A DNA stretch of 64,000 nucleotides from Begonia masoniana (Eukaryota; Streptophyta; Magnoliopsida; Cucurbitales; Begoniaceae). Positions 4,334-61,505 of the stretch are shown here, one piece after another. Under the pieces are notes generated by a model, which did not search any database, had not been told where the DNA came from, and saw only the letters and a program-made list of their open reading frames with translations. Position 1 is the stretch's first letter. Each line of letters opens with the position of its first letter. A program made the position numbers and the translations under genes. The stretch is taken from the NCBI GenBank assembly GCA_022432975.1, contig CM039509.1, positions 17,421,261 through 17,485,260 of the forward strand. Direction: 5' to 3'.

Positions 4334-5800
4334 TGTAATACTCGGTCCTATCAAACCGTTTCTCCGTTCCTTTTAAACAAATGACACAATTTATATGACA
4401 ATATTATATGTAGGGTTAGTAGATGACTAGGCAGGGGCATAAGAGTAATTAGAAATTCAAGGGTGGATAACGTATTTAAGGGAACTATTAATGAAGTAGC
4501 CGCCACTGTTGATTTTATTTCCTCCCCATTCTCAGCTCCTCAGCTTAGCAGAGCGCGATAAGGGAATTAATCCGCCCCTTAAATCGTACATATGGATTTA
4601 TACCCCGGGAAAACTGATCCACCTCCCATTGTATCAGGGATCATCAGACCAGTGAACGAATGCAACATAACTGAGGAATGAAAGTAGAAACTGCATATTT
4701 AGGATCATATTTCAGTACTTCATTTCATTATCGCTTTACTTACTTAGCATTAGGCTAATAGATGAGTTTTGTGATGTAGGTGTTGAGGATTTTGCAGGTG
4801 AATTTCCTGAGTGCACAGATGATTAGCTGTGGTTGGAGGAGTTCATCCATGTCTCGACTCGAAAGCTGATGAGGCGGGTTAACTGGTGTCAGCAGATGTT
4901 GAGGTCTATTTGATAGTGGTTAAGTCTGAACATGTTAAGTTTTCACGATAGAATGGTTTTTAATGTTTTGAATCTGTTTTGAGATTTTCTGATAATAGTA
5001 TTTCTGTGAGATTTTAAATGTTGGTTCATACTAAATTTTAGTAATGCATTGGTCTGGAATGTTTAAGTGAAGTGAGAAAATTTCCTTTCCGTAGTTAGAG
5101 TTGTTGTTCTGCTCTCTGTCGGTAGATGGAGTCTATCGACAGATGTTGAGTTGTTAATATGTCCTCTATCGGTACGTGCAGTTTGCCTCACCGGTGGATG
5201 TATGGTTGAGTCGATCGGATGAATGAATCATCCGGCTGACGTCATCGGACGATGTGTGTTTAATTTTATCGGAAGATGTCTTCAGAAAAGCCATCGGATG
5301 ATGTAAAAACTCTTTGTCGTTTAGTGGCCGGTGGATGTCGTGAGTTAATCCACCGGAAGATGTAGGTTTAAATCTATCAGATGAAGGAAGGCATCTGGCT
5401 GACGTCATCGGAAGTTGTAGAGAGCATTTTTGTCGTTTAGTCACCGGTGGATACCGTGAGTAAAACCACCGGAAGATGGAGAGAATATTTTGTCGTTTTA
5501 TGACCGGAGGACGGCTTTCGTTTTTGTTTTCTGTTTTTAGCCCTTCCGTTGACTTGGTTCAGCGGCAGGTGCGTTTGACTTTCTTTACCTTTAAAGCAAC
5601 CCGCGGTTTAAATTTTTCTTTTCCCTTGGTCAACTATTTCTAATATTCCGCCCGATTATCCAAACACTTTTTATGATTTTGTTCAGCTCTATTTTTGTTT
5701 AAATGATTTCCGCTGCAAGCAAAAAAAAAATATAGTAGAAAGTTTAGTCATGTACGAGGTTTGCATGACAAACCGGGTTCAGATAACTCGGGGCGTTACA
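4334..5800 (+). repeat. E1 5' LTR (carries an internal deletion)
   Basis: 1467 bp, TG...CA. Relative to the 3' LTR it lacks the stretch corresponding to about 10690-10958 and one copy of a 97-bp duplication. The missing part contains the 5' splice-site-like AG/GTAAG and the first arm of the leader-intron module. The second arm and the acceptor remain near 4765-4780. A degenerate repeat zone with CGG-NN-GATG words and two TGACGTCA palindromes (5237-5244, 5400-5407) occupies 5110-5520. Confidence 0.95.
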
Positions 5801-10463: not shown

Positions 10464-10785
10464 TGTAATACTCGGTTCTATCAAACCGTTTCTCTGTTCC
10501 TTTTAAACAAATGACACAATTTATATGACAATATTATATGTAGGGTTAGTGGATGACTAGGCAGGGGCATAAGAGTAATTAGAAATTCAAGGGTGGATAA
10601 CGTATGTAAGGGAACTATTAATGAAGTAGCCGCCACTGTTGATTTTATTTCCTCCCCATTCTCAGCTCCTCAGCTTAGCAGAGCACGATAGGAGACTCCC
10701 TTCGACTTCCTCCAGCGATTTCCTCCGAACTTGGTTTAGTTAATACCCAAAGTAGTTTGCAACCAAGCTTTCTCCAGGAGACCAG

Positions 10786-11275
10786 GTAAGTAGAGTTTGC
10801 ATGTGCCTTCGGGCCTACATCACAAAACAGTAGGATTTGTGTGTGCATGAATGAATGTTTCTTTTCAGTTGCCATGCATCATATTTTGAAAGAAAATGAA
10901 AATGAATTTACATGAAGTAGCATGGTGAGATGTGAACAGATTGTGACAGTATACTTTTAAGGGAATTAATCCGCCCCTTAAATCGTACATATGGATTTAT
11001 ACCCTGGGAAAACTGATCCACCTCCCATTGTATCAGGGATCATCAGTATACTTTTAAGGGAATTAATCCGCCCCTTAAATCGTACATATGGATTTATACC
11101 CTAGGAAAACTGATCCACCTCCCATTGTATCAGGGATCATCAGACCAGTGAACGAATGCAACATAACTGAGGAATGAAAGTAGAAACTGCATATTTAGGA
11201 TCATATTTCAGTACTTCATTTCATTATCGCTTTACTTACTTAGCATTAGGCTAATAGATGAGTTTTGTGATGTAG
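10786..11275 (+). other. Putative LTR leader intron, E1 3' LTR
   Basis: 5' site ACCAG/GTAAG at 10785/10786. A GCC-TTCG-GGC hairpin at 10805-10814 runs into arm 1, CCTACATCACAAAAC (10814-10828). Arm 2, GTTTTGTGATGTAGG (11262-11276), is a perfect 15-nt complement and contains the proposed acceptor TAG/G. A second CAG/GTGA lies 18 nt further. Hairpin TAGC-ATTAG-GCTA at 11241-11253 precedes arm 2. Splicing is inferred, not shown. Confidence 0.6.
10948..11141 (+). repeat. 97-bp tandem duplication in E1 3' LTR
   Basis: Two nearly identical copies, 10948-11044 and 11045-11141. The 5' LTR has only a single, truncated copy from 4560. The duplication lies within the putative intron. Confidence 0.92.
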
Positions 11276-12300
11276 GTGTTGAGGATATTGCAGGTGAATT
11301 TCCTGAGTGCACAGATGATTAGCTGTGGTTGGAGGAGTTCATCCATGTCTCGACTCGGAAGTTGATGAGGCGGGTTAACTGGTGTCAGCAGATGTTGAGG
11401 TCTATTTGATAGTGGTTAAGTCTGATCATGTTAAATTTTCACGATAGAATGGTTTTTAATGTTTTGAATCTGTTTTGAGATTTTCTGATAATAGTATTTC
11501 TGTGAGATTTTAAATGTTGGTTCATACTAAATTTTAGTAATGCATTGGTTTGGAATGTTTAAGTGAAGTGAGAAAATTTCCTTTCCGTAGTTAGAGTTGT
11601 TGTTCTGCTCTCTGTCGGTAGATGGAGTCTATCGGCATATGTTGAGTTGTTAATCTGTCCTCTATCGGTATGTGCAGTTCGCCTCACCGGTGGATGTATG
11701 GTTGAGTCGATCGGATGAATGAATCATCCGGCTGACGTCATCGGACGATGTGTGTTTAATTTTATTGGTAGATGTCTTCAGAAAAGCCATCGGATGATGT
11801 AAAAACTCTTTGTCGTTTAGTGGCCGGTGGATGTCGTGTGTTAATCCACCGGAAGATGTAGGTTTAAATCTATCGGATGAAGGAAGGCATCTTGCTGACG
11901 TCATCAGAAGTTGTAGAGAGCATTTTGGTCGTTTAGTCACCGGTGGATACCGTGAGTAAAACCACCGGAAGATGGAGAGAATATTTTGTTGTTTTATGAC
12001 CGGAGGATGGCTTCCGTTTCTGTTTTCTGTTTTTAGCCCTTCCGTTGACTTGGTTCAGCGGCAGGTGCGTTTGACTTTCTTCACCTTTAAAGCAACCCGC
12101 GGTTTAAACTTTTCTTTTCCCTTGGTCAACTATTTCTAATATTCCGCCCGATTATCCAAACACTTTTTATGATTTTGTTCAGCTCTATTTTTGTTTAAAT
12201 GATTTCCGCTGCAAGCAAAAAAAAATATGGTAGAAAGTTTAGTCATGTACGAGGTTTGCATGACAAACCAGGTTCAGATAACTCGGGGCGTTACAAGGCT

Positions 12301-13215: not shown

Positions 13216-13373
13216 TAAATTGTGACGACCCTCGTACTATTCCTAAATTTCCCATAATTATTTATCTTATTTTTTTTTCTTCTAAAAATCTAAAACATTT
13301 AAAATTGAGAACATAAACTAGAAATTTTACAGCGGAAGACTTAGTGAAATGAGAAATATAAAATAGAAGCTAT

Positions 13374-13935
13374 GGACAACAGAAGTGTAGTGTCTGTGGA
13401 CAACAGAAGTGCAGTGGTAGTAGACAACAGAAGTGCAGTGGCTGTGGACATCAGAAGTGCAGTGGTAGTGGACAACAGAATTGCAGTGGCAGTGGACAAT
13501 AGAATTGCAGTGGCAGTGGACAACAGAAGTGCAGTGGCAGTGGACAACAGAATTGAAGTGGCAGCAGACAACAGAATTGCAGTGGCTGTGGACAACAGAA
13601 GTGCAGTGGCTGTGGAAAACAGAAGTACAGTGGCAGTGGACAACAAAAGTGCAGTGGTTGTGGACAACAGAAGTGCAGTGGCTGTGGACAACAGAAGTAC
13701 AGTGGCAGTGGACAACAGAATTGCAGTGGAAGTGGACAACAGAAGTGCAGTGGCTGTGGACAACAGAAGTGCAGTGGCAGTGGACAACAGAAGTGCAGTG
13801 GCTGTGGATAACAGAAGTACAGTGGCTGTGGACAATAGAAGTACAGTGACTGTGGACAACAGAAGTGCAGTGGCAGTGGACAACAGAATTGCAGTGGCAG
13901 TGGACAATAGAATTGCAGTGGTAGTGGACAACATT
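13374..13935. repeat. 24-bp minisatellite, about 23 copies, inside element A LTR
   Basis: The unit is of the form GACAACAGAAGTGCAGTGGC plus about 4 variable bases; copies differ mainly at A/T and G/A positions. Because 24 is divisible by 3 and stops are rare, several frames on both strands stay open across the array. Those frames are a by-product of the repeat and not genes. Confidence 0.96.
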
Positions 13936-14517
13936 TCACAGAACACTTAACCAAAATTCATAAAAATTCCTGAAAACAGAATGGACTACTACCGTGGACG
14001 ACATCCATAAACTTATAAAATTCCGACTACTTAACAGATTTCCAGAGAGCTTAACTTCCTCTCTGGAATTCACTTCTTCCCTAAAATTTACAGAAACACC
14101 AGAATAACCCAGAAATTCTCAAAATATTTACTCACTTCCTCAACCACCAAATAAATCAACCTAAAACATATCCTAGAACGTGTTTAAAAACATAGTAGGA
14201 TTTCGTAAAAAAAACGAACTACGTGAATCCATTTAAAAAAATCTAAACATTTCCTCATGTTTAAAAGAAAACTCCAAGCAGTTCCAGTAAATTGCGAAAT
14301 CAAAATAGTTCTATTATCAATATCAACTCAACTAATTCTTATAACAACCTAAACATATTATTTACATATTTCTTCGAGGAGTAGCCCAAAAGACTTACAC
14401 ACCTCCCCACGGGTCAAAAACGCCTCGACTGCGCCTGCACACTCCCACGACCATTCTTCTTCAACCTGCTTCATACTTCAGGAGGAGGAACGTCGTCCTC
14501 ACCTGTCTCGAAATCAC

Positions 14518-18567: not shown

Positions 18568-19220
18568 GTAAGTGAATGTATAGGTTTCTCGGTCAATAGG
18601 ACCCTACATCAAAGGATGCTAAGTAGAAACTCGTACGATGATTAGTAGTTCTTTCATGTTACTGTCTAGCATTTATGTCGACGATTGGTTCGATAGTAAG
18701 CTTTTCATACTGGCTGAATGTTCTGTCCTACAGCTTGGACGAGTTAAAGAACCCCATGCTCATGCATTATCAATGTTTTATGCACATGAAAATGTTTTAA
18801 AAGCATGTTCTCTCATGAACAAGATAAGATGATAAAATCCCTACAACGCGGATGAGTGGGGGTTGAGGGCGGTTCGGCGTATGTCACAGTCCACAGTAGG
18901 ACATATGAATACAACCCACAGTAGGGACCATGATCAAACTCACTGTCGAACCCCCTTTACCGGCACAAATCCTCTCTCATCCCACGCAACATGAACAATG
19001 ATATGAATAACGAATATGGTTCAGCGATATGGACTATAATACGAACGAAGAATGTGTTTCAGCGATGTGAATTATGTTATGAATGATGAATATGGAATAA
19101 TGATTATGAACAAGAAAAGACTCATGACCACGTTTTTCTCTGAATTATGCATTCATGCATTCATGTTATTGTTGCATTCCTTACTAAGCATTAGGCTTAT
19201 AGTTTAAACCTTTGATGTAG
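18568..19220 (+). other. Putative LTR leader intron, S1
   Basis: ACCAG/GTAAGT at 18567/18568. Hairpin GGTC-AATAG-GACC (18591-18603) is a compensated variant of GGCC..GGCC. Arm 1 CCTACATCAAAGG (18603-18615) and arm 2 CCTTTGATGTAGG (19209-19221) are perfect 13-nt complements. Hairpin TAAGC-ATTAG-GCTTA (19185-19199) carries TACTAA. A second CAG/GTGAGG lies 15 nt after the acceptor. Confidence 0.62.
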
Positions 19221-19579
19221 GTGACGAGTTTTCAGGTGAGGGATTCAAGTTAAATGAGGAAGTCTAAGTTTGGCTGTTGGAGAATGCTCAGTGTGGCAGT
19301 GAAGGCTGGATTGGCGAATAAGTTCTTTGGTTTATGCTCTATGAACATTATTAATGATTTTAATATGGAAGTATAAGTAGAATGAAGTTATTTCATAGTA
19401 CTGGGATTGGAAATTATCTGGATGCTCACTGGATAGAGGATGGTACAGTTTATTGAATATCTTTTGTTTAAGACTTCCGATATATGTACTCTGAGGGAAT
19501 CATTGATTTCTGTTTACAGAAATGTTAAGTCTAGAAAGTTTGAGACTTGTTCATGATTATGTCTATTGGGAAATGTTGT

Positions 19580-45897: not shown

Positions 45898-48083
45898 CGA
45901 GTTACCTGAACCCGATTCGTCACATTTGCTGTTCATGTGTCTAACAGTACTTGAAAATCCATAAAAATTTAAAACTTTTCCCACCGTTTAAAATGACATC
46001 GTTAAAACATTAAATATTTGCAGCGGAAAGAAAAGATTACTTTATAGAAGACTCATTATAAAATTTTTGAACTAAATAAAATAAGAGAATGAAATATTGC
46101 TTTACATTCACTATCGTTAAAAAAAACGACAATATAACGTTTAAAACTATAAAACCAAAACCTGCAATGTGAAACTAGACTTCTAATATAATTTTCAAAA
46201 TATATTCATACATCAAAATAGACACTACTGTTTAAAGACAACTAAACTTGTCATTTACATACAAATCTGTAACTTCAAAATCTTTTGTACATACATTATC
46301 CCAAAATTACCTATGCATTCGCCCACAGGTCAAAATCGCCCTAGCGGCTACAAGCACACCCCATGGACGTCCTCCACTAACTGCTCCATCAACCTTCTTA
46401 AGGATCAAGGCGCTCACCTGTATCAAATTCACCTACACCACAAAATAAACTAATGAGCCTAATGCTCAGTAAGTGATGTAGTAAAATAAAATGCATGCTC
46501 ATGATTATGCTATGCTGTTCGTAAAAGCATGTACTGAGTCTTCTCTTATTTTTCTTGCATGACATGAGTTATTGGGGTACTGCTTCTAGAGAAGAGATGG
46601 CCTAACTGATTGTCCACCTGGCGGGACGACCAACTCGCTCTAGGAGAAGTGGGATGGCATATATGACAGTCCCTCTGACGGAACCGATTCCTCTGGCGGA
46701 ACTACCAAACTCAGTTCCCTACCCACAATAACTATTACGTATTTTACTGTTCTATATTATGTTACTCTTGTTTACATGAAAACTATGTATAAAAACCATT
46801 TTCTATGCTTTAGGAAAACCATGATGCATGATTACATGTTGCACACACATCCTTCAATTCTATAACATAATATAACTAATAAGCAAATCATTCATTAAAC
46901 AAACAACTAGCATAATTAACTCACTCACAACCTAAGAGTTCTACCCAACTAACTCTCAAAACTACATTCACCAAATCCTCAATCTCATAATCTTTTGTGG
47001 TGTAGGCCAATCGGCCAAAACGCATGCATACATACACTTACCTCGTCTCTTGAGTTTCGTTAATGTGCTCAAGTTCCTTCTTGAATTGTATACCTAAAGC
47101 ATGCCAATCAACAAGATTCATAAAAATTTACTTAACAACATAATTTTCGGAATTCCCTTCAAATAAACAACAAATTTCAAAATCTCATAACTTTTGCTAT
47201 ACATAACCAAATTCGATAATTCTTGAGGCTATGGAATCCTTAAGGAGTCTACTTTAACATGGTAAGTCAATTTATCAAGATAAACTAGCTCAATGTATCG
47301 AAATTACAGATTTCCAATCTGCCCTGTATTTTACTATTTTCAACTATTCATGCATTACTTGATGTTTTTCCTTCATTTTCAACCATAAGCAACCATTACA
47401 ATTCATTCAAACCCTAAAACATCAAGAAATTAAGGAGGGAAAAGAAAATTTTCGTGCAGCCATCTAGGGTTTATCAACCTCTCCATAATCTCAAGAAAAC
47501 TCCAATTTTATCAACCTATAACTAGTATTTTACATGAACATAACCTAAAATTTAACTTACCTTGATTCTTCTTGCAAAAGACCAAGCTTTGAGAGAAGGG
47601 AGAGCTCTGAAAATGGAGGAGAAATTTCGTGGCTCTTGGTCATACTAAGAGTTACCTTAAAGATGAGTAGGAGGTGAGGTGTCGTTTTTAGGTTTAAAGG
47701 AGGAATTTTGACTTTTCTTCATGTTTATCCTCCTTTTCTCTCTTTACTTCTACCTTTGATTTCCAGCATGGTTTCTTTCTCCCTTTGTCTTTTGAAAGTT
47801 TGACTCCATCATACCTCCCCTCCATTGGTTCTTCATTGTTGACTATTCAAACTTAACACTATTCTTCATTCCTATTGGTCCTTATTTTCTTTTGACTTTT
47901 GAAACTCTCTTCAATTGGTTCATCATTCTTCTTTAGATGTTAAAGTTAATTGCTATTGATCTAATACTTGTTGACTTCTCAATATTCCATTGCTTCTCTT
48001 TATTTCTAAAATTGAGAAATTTTAAATCATAAAACACTATGCACGAGTAATAGGGTGTACGATGAAATTTTTTGGTTATTACA
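45898..48083 (-). repeat. Element C 5' LTR
   Basis: 2186 bp, near-identical to 39056-41240. It carries the same module: donor at 47042/47041, arms 46993-47006 and 46432-46445 (14 nt perfect). Confidence 0.95.
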
Positions 48084-50456: not shown

Positions 50457-51372
50457 CTACACCATGGAACATAAAACATAAGCCTAATGCTTAGTAGGTA
50501 GGAAATAATGCATACGACAAACATAATGCAACACAACCCCTAACACATGAAGTTTCTACTCGCTCAGTTGCTCTTGTTTCGTTTGCTTTTCGTTGTTCAT
50601 TCACAGGACCGAAGCTCATCACACATACTAACATCGCACCTTAACGCAACTGGGCAACTCACATGGAGTCCCTCGCAGGTGTCCAACTCACACAGAGTCC
50701 TTCGCAAGTGCCACCCTAACGCGACTGGGCAACTCCACTGGAGTCCCTCACAGGTGTCACTCTAACGCGACTGGGCAACTCTACCAAAGTCCCTCGCAGG
50801 TACCACCCTAACGCGACGTGACAACTCCCATGGAGTTACCCGCAGGTGCTACCCTAGCGCGACTAGGCGACTCACCTATAGTCCCTCGCAGGTAGCACCT
50901 TAACGCGACGTGACAACTCCCATGGAGTTACCCGCAGGTGCTACCCTAACGCGACTAGGCGACTCAACTATAGTCCCTCGCAGGTACAACCTTAACGCGA
51001 CGTGACAACTCCCATGGAGTTACCCGCAAGTGCTACCTAACGCGACTAGGCGACTCAACTATAGTCCCTCGCAGGTACCACCTTAACGCGACGTGACAAC
51101 TCCCATGGAGTTACCCGCAGGTGCTACCCTAACGCGACTAGGCGACTCTGACACAAACAAGCTTATGATTCAACTCACACCATCCCTTACGGTTCAAGCT
51201 CACCATGCAAAACCATGCTTAAAACTCGTTTCTCGTAGTTTAAAAACCGTGATGCGTGCCACACAATTACTCAACACAAAACTAAAAAAAACAACCAAAC
51301 AAAGCAAACCACTAATTCCCTACCGTTCCATGGTGTAGGCCCGAAGGCAAACCACACACATCCACTACTTAC
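50457..51372 (-). other. Putative LTR leader intron, element D 3' LTR
   Basis: Minus strand: CCAG/GTAAGT at 51373/51372; GCC-TTCG-GGC hairpin (51339-51348); arm 1 CCTACACCATGGAAC (51325-51339); arm 2 GTTCCATGGTGTAGG (50456-50470), a perfect 15-nt complement. Hairpin TAAGC-N5-GCTTA at 50479-50493. A second CAG/GTGAGG is 18 nt past the acceptor. Here the tandem array is inside the putative intron. Confidence 0.63.
50630..51150. repeat. About 92-bp tandem array in D 3' LTR
   Basis: Each unit has two related halves of about 45 bp: AACGCGACTAGGCGACTCAAC...CGCAGGT and AACGCGACGTGACAACTCCC...CGCAGGT. The left edge is more degenerate (GACTGGGCAACTC). About four clear units. Confidence 0.93.
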
Positions 51373-55304: not shown

Positions 55305-56200
55305 TGTAACGCCCCGAACCCACCCCGGCTCGGTGCGCTACGTTTTCAAACCGATCCCGTGTTTAAAATATCATTTAAATAATTTTAGTAAATTTTTACA
55401 ACTCGTTTTTGGGTTTTTCTAACCCTTGAAATTCATTGGAAAACGGGCCCAAAATACGTCAAAAAATGTCGGGTCAAAACATTGTAGAAATAGGGAAAAT
55501 TTGAAAAAGAACCGAAAATGGGCTCAAAGAGGCGCTGGGCGCCGCGCGCGCCCAGGCAGCGCGCCAGCGCACATGTAACGCCCTCGAACCCACCCTGGCT
55601 CGGAGCACTACTTTGCTAACCAATCCTACGTTAAAACATAATCTAAATTAAATCTAAGTCTCTCAAAACTCTCTTATGTTATACCTAACTGCCTAGACAC
55701 ACTAATTTTCCTTAATCCTAACCTTTAAGCACCACGGCGTCCTTCCCGAAAATTTCGACAAAGTAACGCCTGAAAATGGCGCCTCCAAAATGCTAGGTAC
55801 CTGCATAAAATCAAATCCCAACCAAACCAGAACATTCCAACCATCTAACCAACCTACGAAATCTCCAAATAACAATAAAGAGGGAAACGAAAATACGAAC
55901 ATACCTAAGTGAAGAAAGTCCATAGTATAGGACGACACATCACTCTTAACTATGACTATATACAACAATTACTAAAAACTATCCCATAGCTCTCAAAACA
56001 TCAACTAAAAGAAAGCTACACATTCCCATCATTTCTATAGACAAACAATTACAATAAACTACTAAATCATAAAGCCCACATTCCCGACGACCATGGTCGA
56101 GGCGCCCCGACAATAGCCCGCACCGGCATACCGCATGCATTATCGACTACGTCCCAATCCTAGCTTTCCTCGCAGCTCTAACCTGTACTCCTGTCGTCAC

Positions 56201-57126
56201 CTACACCACAGAACACGCACACACACGTAAGCTTACGCTTAGCAAGTAGGGAATAGCAAATATAAACAAGCACAATGCACAACCCACACAACCCTAACAC
56301 ATGCTATTTCTAGTCGCTCGGTTTCGCTCAGTCCATTCTCATTTACCGAATTGTAGACGTACGTCTCTTGTAGAATTCCATTCTACTCGAGACACCCAGC
56401 GTACAGCTCACACCATACACCCAAAGCGCACATCCATCAACAATTCTCAAACAAAACAAAGTAATCAACCAACAATGCTTAACTCAACCCTAACATGCAG
56501 TTTCTACACACTCCGTTGTTTTCTTTTTTTGTTCTGATTGCATTTGTCTCTAGTAAAATCCCTCTCGGGGTGCTCAACGAGCCACGTGCCCGACAAGGCT
56601 ATTCTACTTTAGACCATTTCTAGTAAAATTCCTCGCGGGGTGCTCAACGAGCCACGTGCCTGACGAGGCTATTCTACTTTAGACCATTTCTAGTAAAATC
56701 CCTCGCGGGGTGCTCAACGAGCCACGTGCCCGATGAGGCGATTCTACAGTAAAATCCCTTGCGGGGTGCTCAGCAAGCCACGTGCCCGACAAGGTGATTC
56801 TACACTAGGCCATCTCTAGTAAAATCCCTCGCAGGGTGCTCAGCGAGCCACGTGCCCGACGAGACGACTCTACAGTAAAATCCCTTGCGGGGTGCTCAGC
56901 GAGCCACGTGCCCGACAAGGCGATTCTACACAACACTCAAACACCAAACCTACTTACACAACGCTCAAACACCGAACAACAACCAAGAATTTCATCACAT
57001 AACACTCAAACATCAAATAATAACAACCCAGCAATTTATCAAACAATACTTAAACACTAACAAACAATAAATCCTACCGTTCTGTGGTGTAGGCCCGAAG
57101 GCGACAAACACTCATCCACTACTTAC
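56201..57126 (-). other. Putative LTR leader intron, N1
   Basis: Minus strand: CTAG/GTAAGT at 57127/57126; GCC-TTCG-GGC next to arm 1 CCTACACCACAGAAC (57079-57093); arm 2 GTTCTGTGGTGTAGG (56200-56214), perfect over 15 nt. Compared with D, the bases ATGG/CCAT are replaced by ACAG/CTGT in both arms. A second CAG/GTTAGA is 18 nt downstream. Confidence 0.63.
56540..56935. repeat. N1 tandem array with six CACGTG G-boxes
   Basis: Units of about 50-75 bp: AGTAAAATCCCTCGCGGGG, then GTGCTCAACGAGCCACGTGC, then CCGACGAGGC.ATTCTAC. CACGTG is at 56583, 56653, 56723, 56779, 56849 and 56905, all perfect. Confidence 0.94.
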
Positions 57127-58024: not shown

Positions 58025-59179
58025 CAATTACATTACCATGTTGCCCTTCCGAAAATTCCGTTAAATCTCGTCCTTAAATTATAAATTTTTGTAAATTGAC
58101 CCTCACCCCGTACCTAGCTTAATTTCTCCATTTAGAATATCCGAACACCAAATAATTAATCAATTATTTTAACCAAATTTATTCACTTTTCTTTTAAATT
58201 AATTAAAACAACTATTTATTAAATAATTACCTTATCATTTTATTTTCTCTCAAATTATTCTTCCAAATTTCCACTCTAATTTTACTACTTGACATAACCT
58301 ATCTAAGGCTACGCGCGTTGTAAGAATTTCCCGGGTGTTACAGCACATGCTGTGCGCGCGCGCCTGCGCACCCCACCGCAACTGGTCGCGGTCCTAGGCC
58401 CGATAGATCGGGCCTCCTCGGGTTTTCTCGACCCAAAACACTTAAAAACCTTCTATTTTGACCCCTTTTGACCTATCCCCACTTTTCCTCATATTTCTCG
58501 ACCCCGAACACCTCCAAAATTCACGAAACTTTAACCATACCTCCCCGACACTCGAACCTTCAAATCTCGTAAAAATTTTAAAAAAAACCGACTTCAACCG
58601 AATATTAATAAAAATAGTGAACTTAAACCCGACGTCGTTTGTTTTAAATTCAATATGGACGGCATAACGCCTAAATCCTTTAAAACCAAAACCTGCAATA
58701 TAAAACCCGAGAATATATAGTTTAAATTCCCAAAATACCACCACCATTACTCAATAACCCAACGACTCGAAATCTTTAAAAATTCATTACGAAAACCGTT
58801 ATAAAAACAACGTGCCAACACGTATCAAATCTCCCAATCACCAACCAGTTACATCAAAAATACCAAAATAACCATCACTCACAACTCCCTGAAGACCATG
58901 ATCGAGACGCCCCGACAACTGCCTGCACCGGCATGCCCTGTACATCACCAACTGCGCTCTAATCCTAGCTTTCCTTAGGCCCTCACCTGTACTCCCGTCT
59001 ACACCTACACCATGGAACATAAAACATAAGCCTAATGCTTAGTAAGTAGGGAATAATGCATCCAACAAACATAATGCAACACAACCCCTAACACATGAAG
59101 TTTCTACTCGCTCAGTTGCTCTTGTTTCGTTTGCTTTTTGTTATTCATTGACAAGACCGAAGCTCATCACACATGCTAA

Positions 59180-59785
59180 CATCGCACCTTAACGCGACTG
59201 GCCAACTCACATGGAGTCCCTCGCAGGTGTCCAACTCACACAGAGTCCCTCACAAGTGCCACCCTAACGCGACTGGGCAACTCCACTGGAGTCCCTCACA
59301 GGTGTCACTCTAACGCGACTGGGGGACTCTACTAAAGTCCCTCGCAGGTACCACCCTAACGCGACGTGACAACTCCCATGGAGTTACCCGCAGGTGCTAC
59401 CCTAATGCGACTAGGCGACTCAACTATAGTCCCTCGCAGGTACCACCTTAACGCGACGTGACAACTCCCATGGAGTTACCCGCAGGTGCTACCCTAACGC
59501 CACTAGGCGACTCAACTATAGTCCCTCGCAGGTACCACCTTAACACGACGTGACAACTCCCATGGAGTTACCCGCAGGTGCTACCCTAACGCGACTAGGC
59601 GACTTAACTATAGTCCCTCGCAGGTACAACCTTAACACGACGTGACAACTCCCATGGAGTTACCAGAGGTGCTACCCTAACGCGACTAGGCGACTCAACT
59701 ATAGTCCCTCGCAGGTACCACCTTAACGCGACGTGACAACTCCCATGGAGTTACCCGCATGTGCTACCCTAACGCGACTAGGCGA
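59180..59785. repeat. About 92-bp tandem array in D 5' LTR
   Basis: Same two-part unit as at 50630-51150 but about five clear units against four. One unit has a CGC-to-GCC change near 59498 and one a 3-bp loss near 59664. Confidence 0.92.
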
Positions 59786-61505
59786 CTCTGACACAAACCA
59801 CCTTACGATTCAACTCACACCATCCCTTACGGTTCAAGCTCACCATGCAAAACCATGCTTAAAACTCGTTTCTCGTAGTTTAAAAATTGTGATGCGTGTC
59901 ACACAATTACTCAACACAAAACTAAACAAAAAAAACAAACAAAGCAAACAACCAATTCCCTACCGTTCCATGGTGTAGGCCCGAAGGCAAACCACACACA
60001 TCCACTACTTACCTGGATTCCTTGTGCGTGCTCTTAATTATATGCCCGGTTAGCCCTATCGTCCAATCGTCAACCTAACATAATAAAAGAGAACTCACTT
60101 AGTAATACTCTAACCATACGTTTTAACCAACTTTTCAACCTAACACACAAAACCCAAAATTCCTAGATTTTCTATCGTCAAACCGAACTACTCGCTCGAT
60201 TACATAAAATAATGAAAACTCAACTTAGTAATTTACTAACAAACTCGAAAGAAATTCTTAACTAAAACTACCACACAATTCATTCTCCAAAACACAGAAC
60301 CCGAATTGTGCACAATTTTGACCGTCAAACTTCAAACGGTCGTAACTCCCTCGTTTTTCAACGGATTTCGACGTGCCACCCCAATCTGTAAACCTCTACA
60401 CGTCTACTATCCAATGACATAAATCAAATTCAACATACAAATACATTGGCCAGCCGAAACACCCAAAACAGCATCGGCCAACTTTCTCTCCAAAATCGGT
60501 TTTCACAAACTTTAATCTAATTTCTAATCAAACTCCCTAACCAACCTAAACTAATCTATCTAAAGCTTAAACAACCAAATTTAGGAAGAAAACTCATCCA
60601 AGAATTCAAAATTTGGAGCTCCCCCCTTTAGGGTTTTCAAACCCTAACAAATTTCTCTCAAAACTCATTAAAACCATCAAAAACTACCACTAATAAACAT
60701 CCAACTTAAAACTCACTTAATTCTTACCTTAATACCCTTGAAAATCAAAGAAGAGAAGGAGAGGAAGGAGCTCCCATGGTGGCTGTGACCGTGGAGAGAA
60801 AAAGGATGAAGATGAAGTTTTTCTTACCTTTTTCCTTTTTATAAAACCATTTTTTTTCTTTATTTTATTCATTTAATAAGCCATTGAAATTACACTTAAA
60901 CCCTCACTTATCCTTCTCTTCGCAGCCACGTCAACCACACAAACCACTCCACATTTCATCCTTTTCTTCCTTTTTCATTCACACATTGTTTGAAATTTGA
61001 TTGGTTAAACACTTGGACTTTTCAAACCAAAAATTCTCAACCAATCACAAGTAAGTTTGAATTGTCAAACTACACTTTTGACTTGTCCACCCTCTTCTTT
61101 TCATTATCACTTAAACTTAATCTCATACTTAGTATAACTTAGGCTACACACGTTAAAGAAATTCTCGGGTGTTACACATCGACTACGGATTTTTCTTTCT
61201 CCACTTCGACAATCGACGCCCAGGTAAGACTCAGACAATGTGGATTGCTGGTTATCTATTTGAGTACTATTTTTCAGTTGAACTTGAGTTTTCGGATTCT
61301 GCAATGGCCGAGTCTGGTTACTGTGATTCTAGGAATTTTAGACTACGCACACAAAGTGCTCGACTAATGGACTTATATATATAGACGTTAGATTCTAGGG
61401 TGATTTTTAATTATGACTTTTAGGATGTTGTTTTAACTCTACAATGTGAAATGTTTTAGGTGAAGAAGTCTGAAGAGAAGTACTCAAAGTTGCTAAGGAA
61501 ACCAG

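Follow-up and report, generated by a model that had tools for sequence, protein, structure and literature searches.

Introduction

How the transcript of a retrotransposon is split between messenger and genome is a long-standing question. Ogre, EVADE, BARE1 and sunflower Tyran and Varan are plant elements described as undergoing partial RNA splicing, which yields unspliced genomic RNA together with shorter messengers (PMC12786077, PMC3735527, PMC7730604). The accessible text of these sources places the introns of Ogre, EVADE and BARE1 inside coding regions or between them, unlike the probable LTR leader intron considered here, and describes none of the five as having an LTR leader intron with a conserved helix. 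The accessible part of a 2025 review presents plant LTR elements as generally without introns, with named exceptions (PMC12786077).

Two systems outside plants are also close. Retroviruses keep part of their RNA unspliced through weak, structured acceptors, according to the available portion of one source; the acceptors of HIV-1 and SIV, for example the SA1 stem-loop, are similar to the present case in pairing a structured acceptor with an RNA that must stay partly unspliced, but they form a local hairpin, whereas here the helix spans a probable intron lying inside the LTR (PMC3616985). Zipper and downstream stems are present in many introns of Saccharomyces cerevisiae, and stems at yeast splice sites are uncorrelated with the fraction spliced, as far as the available text reports (PMC12350175). 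Zipper stems share with the structure described below an intramolecular helix that changes the distance between spliceosomal splice signals (PMC12350175, same text).

The locus analysed here lies in a stretch of 64,000 nt from Begonia masoniana, referred to as the window. Its long terminal repeats carry a long-range helix, P2, one strand of which follows a putative donor while the other contains a putative acceptor, with the branch-like motif in a separate hairpin. It differs in these respects from the yeast zipper stems, and also because it resides in a retrotransposon LTR of very high copy number. No recognised report of a plant LTR leader intron with such a helix was found in a literature search that lay largely outside subscription journals. 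A covarying helix that ties together the ends of an LTR intron, in tens of thousands of copies in a single genome, would make the division of transcripts testable. Should the introns be spliced, the view of plant LTR elements as generally without introns, as worded in the accessible part of the review, would need revision for a very abundant group (PMC12786077).

The host element

The element examined most closely, E1, has a 3′ LTR at 10464..12295 (+ strand), delimited from the sequence by direct repeats, and a 5′ LTR at 4334–5800 with an internal deletion. AGGCT flanks E1 on both outer sides as a 5-bp target-site duplication. In the open frame of the polyprotein reverse transcriptase is followed by integrase, the order that defines Ty3/gypsy elements; the order was read by eye from what we take to be the motifs of the two domains. 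A 338-residue piece of the integrase part matched the Pfam family SH3_Tf2-1 (8.8e-22) and, below its cut-off, rve (1e-4); no chromodomain hit was obtained in that piece. The element group is Ty3/gypsy, and a Tekay label is plausible. A known RNA family was rejected as the identity of the arms, as the window gave no Rfam match at gathering score, for example to the retrozyme hammerhead.

Paired arms in the window and across the genome

In E1 the 5′ strand of P2 is CCTACATCACAAAAC (10814..10828, +) and the 3′ strand, which contains the acceptor TGTAG|G, is GTTTTGTGATGTAGG (11262..11276, +); the two are Watson-Crick complementary at 15/15 positions. Complementary arms within the LTRs had been proposed at 10814..11276 by a sequence-only reading, and these coordinates proved exact. 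Among the 13 window pairs compared, uninterrupted pairing extends over 15 bases in E1, N1 and both D copies, over 14 in both C copies, over 13 in S1 and over 10 in S2. One D copy has its arms at 59979–59965 and 59018–59004 (59004..59979, minus strand), N1 at 56200..57093 (minus), one C copy at 46432..47006 (minus) and S1 at 18603..19221 (+). The M and B copies have a shorter P2 and make use of wobbles. The span from arm to arm is 463–976 nt in 12 of the 13 pairs and 2,776 nt in the thirteenth, where it is probably explained by a nested insertion.

On both strands of the window the motif CCTACAYCR occurs 27 times. Twelve occurrences have AGGTAAG 28–36 nt upstream. Another 14 correspond to 3′ arms in reverse orientation, and the remaining one (19751, minus) has no relation to the arms. 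Genome-wide (795 Mb), the pattern AGGTAAGT-N15..45-CCTACA has 61,515 matches, against 141 for the reversed pattern. The observation of paired arms is confirmed as real and far above chance. The donor-plus-arm pattern was also met in at least 120 stretches of viral contigs, which were presumed to be chance matches to a short pattern and set aside.

Covariation between the arms

All copies compared come from one genome. From the 61,515 matches, 100 places were listed and 90 used (30 loci and 60 stretches); the ten omitted mostly had matched text identical to that of another place on the list. Together with those of the window, 103 sites were obtained and, after removal of three duplicates, 100, one further site having been omitted for lying too near a locus end. 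The 3′ side was located by an anchor, a hairpin followed by GTAGG, which is blind to further complementarity of the arms and was found in 66 of the 100 sites. The best 16-base partner of the 5′ arm lies exactly at the anchor in 57 of these 66. Eleven further sites were placed by pairing, giving 68 copies in 10 blastn clusters (families). Of the 32 sites dropped, 8 had their best partner somewhere other than at the anchor, and 24 had neither an anchor nor a clear 3′ side within 1.5 kb. The 68 copies had been drawn by their donor sequence; a second set of 30 places, among 100 listed by a pattern that does not require the donor, contributed 21 copies to the covariation tests.

The first six bases of either arm hardly vary. 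At positions 7–14, the 66 unselected anchors (41 distinct arm pairs) are paired in 84.5 % of cells, compared with 67.9 % when partners are shuffled (sd 1.8, maximum 74.4 of 5,000 shuffles). Among the 34 distinct pairs in which the anchor is the best partner the value is 89.7 %, compared with 70.4 % for shuffled partners and 70.8 % for partners taken from other families. The 34-pair set, like the corresponding set of 57 copies, keeps only anchors that are the best partner, and the effects without such selection are smaller and still clear.

Double changes on the same branch were counted on a tree built without the arms and the hairpin. The 68 copies show 15 such changes in P2 where 6.4 are expected (sd 2.2; P=0.0002 of 5,000), and pairing survives in 13 of them. 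For the 57 copies 15 were found against 5.2 expected, a number reached by none of 5,000 simulations. In the 66 copies placed by the anchor alone the count is again 15, of which 11 preserve pairing, with 7.3 expected (P=0.0018). When the register of P2 is slid, 1–7 double changes with 1–2 kept remain in the 68-copy test, and 0–7 with 0–3 kept overall. The further 21 copies alone show 6 double changes (4 kept) against 4.0 expected, which is not significant (P=0.17). Compensatory change had been offered as evidence of a selected pairing; it is supported by the 68 copies and by those placed by anchor alone, but not by the further 21 taken by themselves. As tree-based tests also bear it out, P2 is best understood as an RNA pairing under selection.

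Folds were predicted for 24 copies, which represent families 0–7 and 9. The predicted probability of P2 is near 1 in families 0, 1, 4 and 7, near 0 in families 3, 5 and 9, and mixed in families 2 and 6. Inspection by eye shows a second potential partner for CCTAC of the 5′ arm, a GTAGG lying only a few bases downstream, at 10814–10834 in E1 and in copies of families 1 and 4; such pairing is a possible alternative to P2.

Intron-like arrangement around the arms

The arms mark both ends of a putative intron, intron 2, which in E1 occupies 10786..11275 (+, 490 nt) and runs from GTAAGT to TGTAG; the 68 sampled copies have the same arrangement. In these copies, the 5′ arm starts 28–43 nt (median 33) past the start of an intron-like AG|GTAAGT. 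The 68 were drawn by their donor. In the second set, drawn without it, 27 of 30 places have AG|GTAAGT with at most one mismatch, a consensus 5′ splice site, and in 21 the partner strand of P2 coincides with the acceptor. In 63 of the 68 copies TGTAGG, and with it the acceptor TGTAG|G, forms the end of the 3′ arm. The length of intron 2 ranges from 378 to 1,395 nt, and the helix and its tight spacing are kept throughout.

A small hairpin, P3 (TTAGC-attag-GCTAA; 11240..11254, +), precedes the acceptor in E1, and its 3′ limb runs into a branch-point-like CTAAT with the A at 11254. In 64 of the 68 copies YTNA lies within a hairpin limb 20–29 nt ahead of the acceptor, where at least 4 of 5 limb pairs were required for a copy to be counted. 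This is the usual distance of branch points from the acceptor in plants. The limbs of P3 vary by family yet remain complementary (TAAGC/GCTTA, TGAGC/GCTCA, TTAGC/GCTAA). The 13 double changes in P3, against about 2 expected, are excluded as proof because the hairpin had been picked for best pairing; fairer evidence is the fold test, in which 61 of 64 distinct copies have a P3 region that outperforms its mononucleotide shuffles.

Ahead of the 5′ arm many copies carry a further hairpin, P1 (GGCC-gatt-GGCC or GCC-uucg-GGC), that overlaps the arm by 1–2 bases; in E1 it is GCC-UUCG-GGC at 10805..10814 (+), with its last base common with P2. P1 was without signal in a 17-nt segment that stopped short of CCTACA (15/64); when two more bases were included, 35 of 44 distinct copies gave a better fold than their shuffles, a weaker signal than those of P2 and P3.

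Exon, hairpin, arm, hairpin, arm and exon follow one another in the same order in all families. The covarying families had been called unrelated LTR families; because one architecture is common to all, they are better regarded as homologous.

A short protein-like stretch after the acceptor

In E1 the sequence after the acceptor, exon C, starts with an open frame of 15 codons (11276..11322, +) that ends in TAG at 11320–11322, its first codon being split across the junction. When exon C is read in the frame G|GT, a stop follows after 15 codons in 28 of the 68 copies and after 15–19 in 50, and the stop itself varies (TGA, TAG or TAA). The predicted peptide is acidic, for example GDIDFEVPGEDDVPPPEA or GEEVTAGEFPECTDE. 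By codon position, family 0 has 35/22/77 changes, family 1 has 6/17/24 and family 3 has 14/5/13, a total of 55/44/114 (p=2e-9, a value that treats changes as independent). The third-position excess is thus seen in two of the three families tested and is absent in family 3. Codon periodicity is lacking in the last 48 bases of the intron (106/83/103, family 0) and after the stop (121/136/133).

Protein-like constraint of this kind makes a coding stretch between acceptor and stop likely. In family 0 the signal stands out clearly over the 24 bases that precede the stop (22/25/52). It is weak over the 15 bases that follow the acceptor (34/23/37), a region in which a gapless count is blurred by in-frame differences in length. 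Owing to this weakness, and to the absence of periodicity in family 3, periodicity is no proof that the acceptor is the edge of an exon, although the coding edge may fall exactly there.

The origin of the frame was sought in several places, and no start codon was found upstream of it. A frame running through exon A was rejected for want of periodicity there (121/124/104, 18 family-0 copies), as was one through exon B (family 0, 98/72/89; family 1, 21/20/22; family 3, 7/11/13). Read back through intron 2, the frame has a median open length of 19 codons versus 5 and 8 in the other frames, and it is stopped within 6 codons in 4/4 copies of family 6 and 5/6 of family 3; it too was discarded, as were reverse-strand frames, which have no conserved end.

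Within about 30 nt after the acceptor, exon C contains a second AG|G in 56 of the 68 copies. It is often CAG|GTGAG and in the same codon phase, so that tandem acceptors are possible.

Probable loss of intron 1 and retention of intron 2

Upstream of intron 2 lies a non-coding leader exon, exon B (10734..10785, +), which was delimited by blastn against two related loci, L050 and L076. Both loci keep a GT-AG intron, intron 1, at the position 10733|10734 of E1. In E1 intron 1 is absent and exon A (ending at 10733) is joined directly to exon B; the alignment with L050 shows 93 % and 91 % identity on either side of intron 1, and E1 lacks precisely the GT-AG intron. Across copies, intron 1 ends mostly in YTTAG or similar, and exon B measures 42–62 nt in most; some family-0 copies carry an unrelated exon B. 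Exon A, a predicted exon, is C-rich, and 28 of 40 copies (18 of 20 family-0 copies) lack an ATG in its last 130 nt.

The same LTR of E1 retains intron 2. Because intron 1 is missing exactly in comparison with L050, E1 looks like a reverse-transcribed copy of an RNA from which intron 1 had been removed while intron 2 was still in place. With a single LTR in this state, chance deletion at a GGT microhomology is possible.

Copies lacking intron 2 were sought in two ways. Among 95 exon C starts from the window and loci L001–L098, there is none with exon B less than about 100 nt away. A single spliced-junction probe, of family 0, had no genome match within 3 mismatches, a result that does not prove rarity; the exon ends of 6 of the 68 sampled copies lie within 3 mismatches of the probe. 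The lack of intron-2-less copies fits retention of intron 2 in the RNA that is copied but is no proof that intron 2 is spliced, hence the term ‘inferred intron’. Nor does absence of loss by itself show throttling, since loss is not expected either for an intron that never undergoes splicing.

Possible roles of the helix

The arms had earlier been said to have no described function; located at both ends of a probable intron, they suggest one. The shared order of donor, P1, P2, loop, P3, P2/acceptor and exon C makes a role in splicing the best reading of P2. By analogy, P2 may work like an intron structure that sets splicing efficiency, without matching the definition of a zipper stem, its 3′ strand being downstream of the branch-like A.

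We lean towards a model in which P2 throttles the splicing of intron 2 and the genomic RNA keeps this intron. Two parts of this model are inferred: the splicing of intron 2 itself, and a negative rather than a positive effect of P2 on that splicing. The LTR leader of this Ty3/gypsy group would then contain at least two GT-AG introns, the second of them structured. P2 would join a strand about 33 nt past the 5′ splice site to the strand holding the intron's own 3′ splice site, while the small P3 hairpin would present the branch point. By keeping the ends of the intron together and covering the acceptor, P2 would allow splicing and at the same time throttle it; RNA retaining intron 2 would serve as the genome for reverse transcription and the spliced fraction as messenger.

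The opposite effect, in which P2 promotes splicing by shortening the effective length of a 0.4–1.4 kb intron as yeast zipper stems do, is doubtful though possible. Arms placed near both ends of the intron suit bridging, the conservation of helix and spacing over so wide a range of intron lengths is in keeping with it, and among the yeast zipper and downstream stems that of RPS17B is needed for efficient splicing, in the text available (PMC12350175). Against this, the 3′ strand of P2 lies past the branch-like A and over the acceptor, whereas zipper stems sit between donor and branch point, and stable stems are depleted near yeast splice sites according to the same text (PMC12350175). Efficient splicing might also leave some copies without intron 2, and none was found among the 95 exon C starts or with the one junction probe; on that ground throttled splicing is judged likelier than enhanced splicing, short of proof.

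The throttling model can be extended by letting the P2-closed acceptor be shared, an extension unlikely enough to be put forward only tentatively. The leader intron would use the acceptor of the 5′ LTR. The acceptor of the 3′ LTR could be joined by an internal donor in gag/protease, which would add a conserved, acidic, LTR-encoded tail of about 15 residues and a stop, so that P2 would act as a switch between genome and Gag-type messenger. Such a junction would explain the exon C frame. An internal donor at one fixed place was not established: E1 and the related L223 share two weak candidates and their strongest ones do not coincide, and among six stretches only L221 and L223 have a candidate donor inside a long open frame. 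The weakness of the coding signal right at the acceptor is a reason for holding both the throttling and the shared-acceptor readings less firmly.

It is improbable that P1, P2 and P3 form an RNA domain for packaging, dimerisation, export or strand transfer to which the splice-like motifs are secondary. All three lie inside the LTR leader, and the LTR leaders of retroelements are where such signals are expected; P2 is, moreover, predicted to be stable in four families. In most copies, however, their positions are tied to donor-, branch- and acceptor-like motifs, and protein-like constraint extends from acceptor to stop with none on the intron side, which speaks against a domain of this kind.

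A DNA-level inverted repeat, or inheritance without selection on pairing, is very improbable: the copies are related, the first six arm bases are near-invariant and the independent 21-copy set is not significant, but chance or inheritance alone is disfavoured by the shuffle and tree tests, in which partner-swapped arms pair less and double changes exceed the null and fall when the register is slid.

Repeats in the window

Repeats were also observed beside these structures. In the loop of intron 2 of E1, sequence at about 10947–11140 is seen by eye to be directly duplicated, the period being about 97 nt. Both D LTRs have arrays with a 46-base period inside intron 2, at 50604–51087 and 59152–59727. 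A 24-base tandem repeat forms a long array at 13253–14053.
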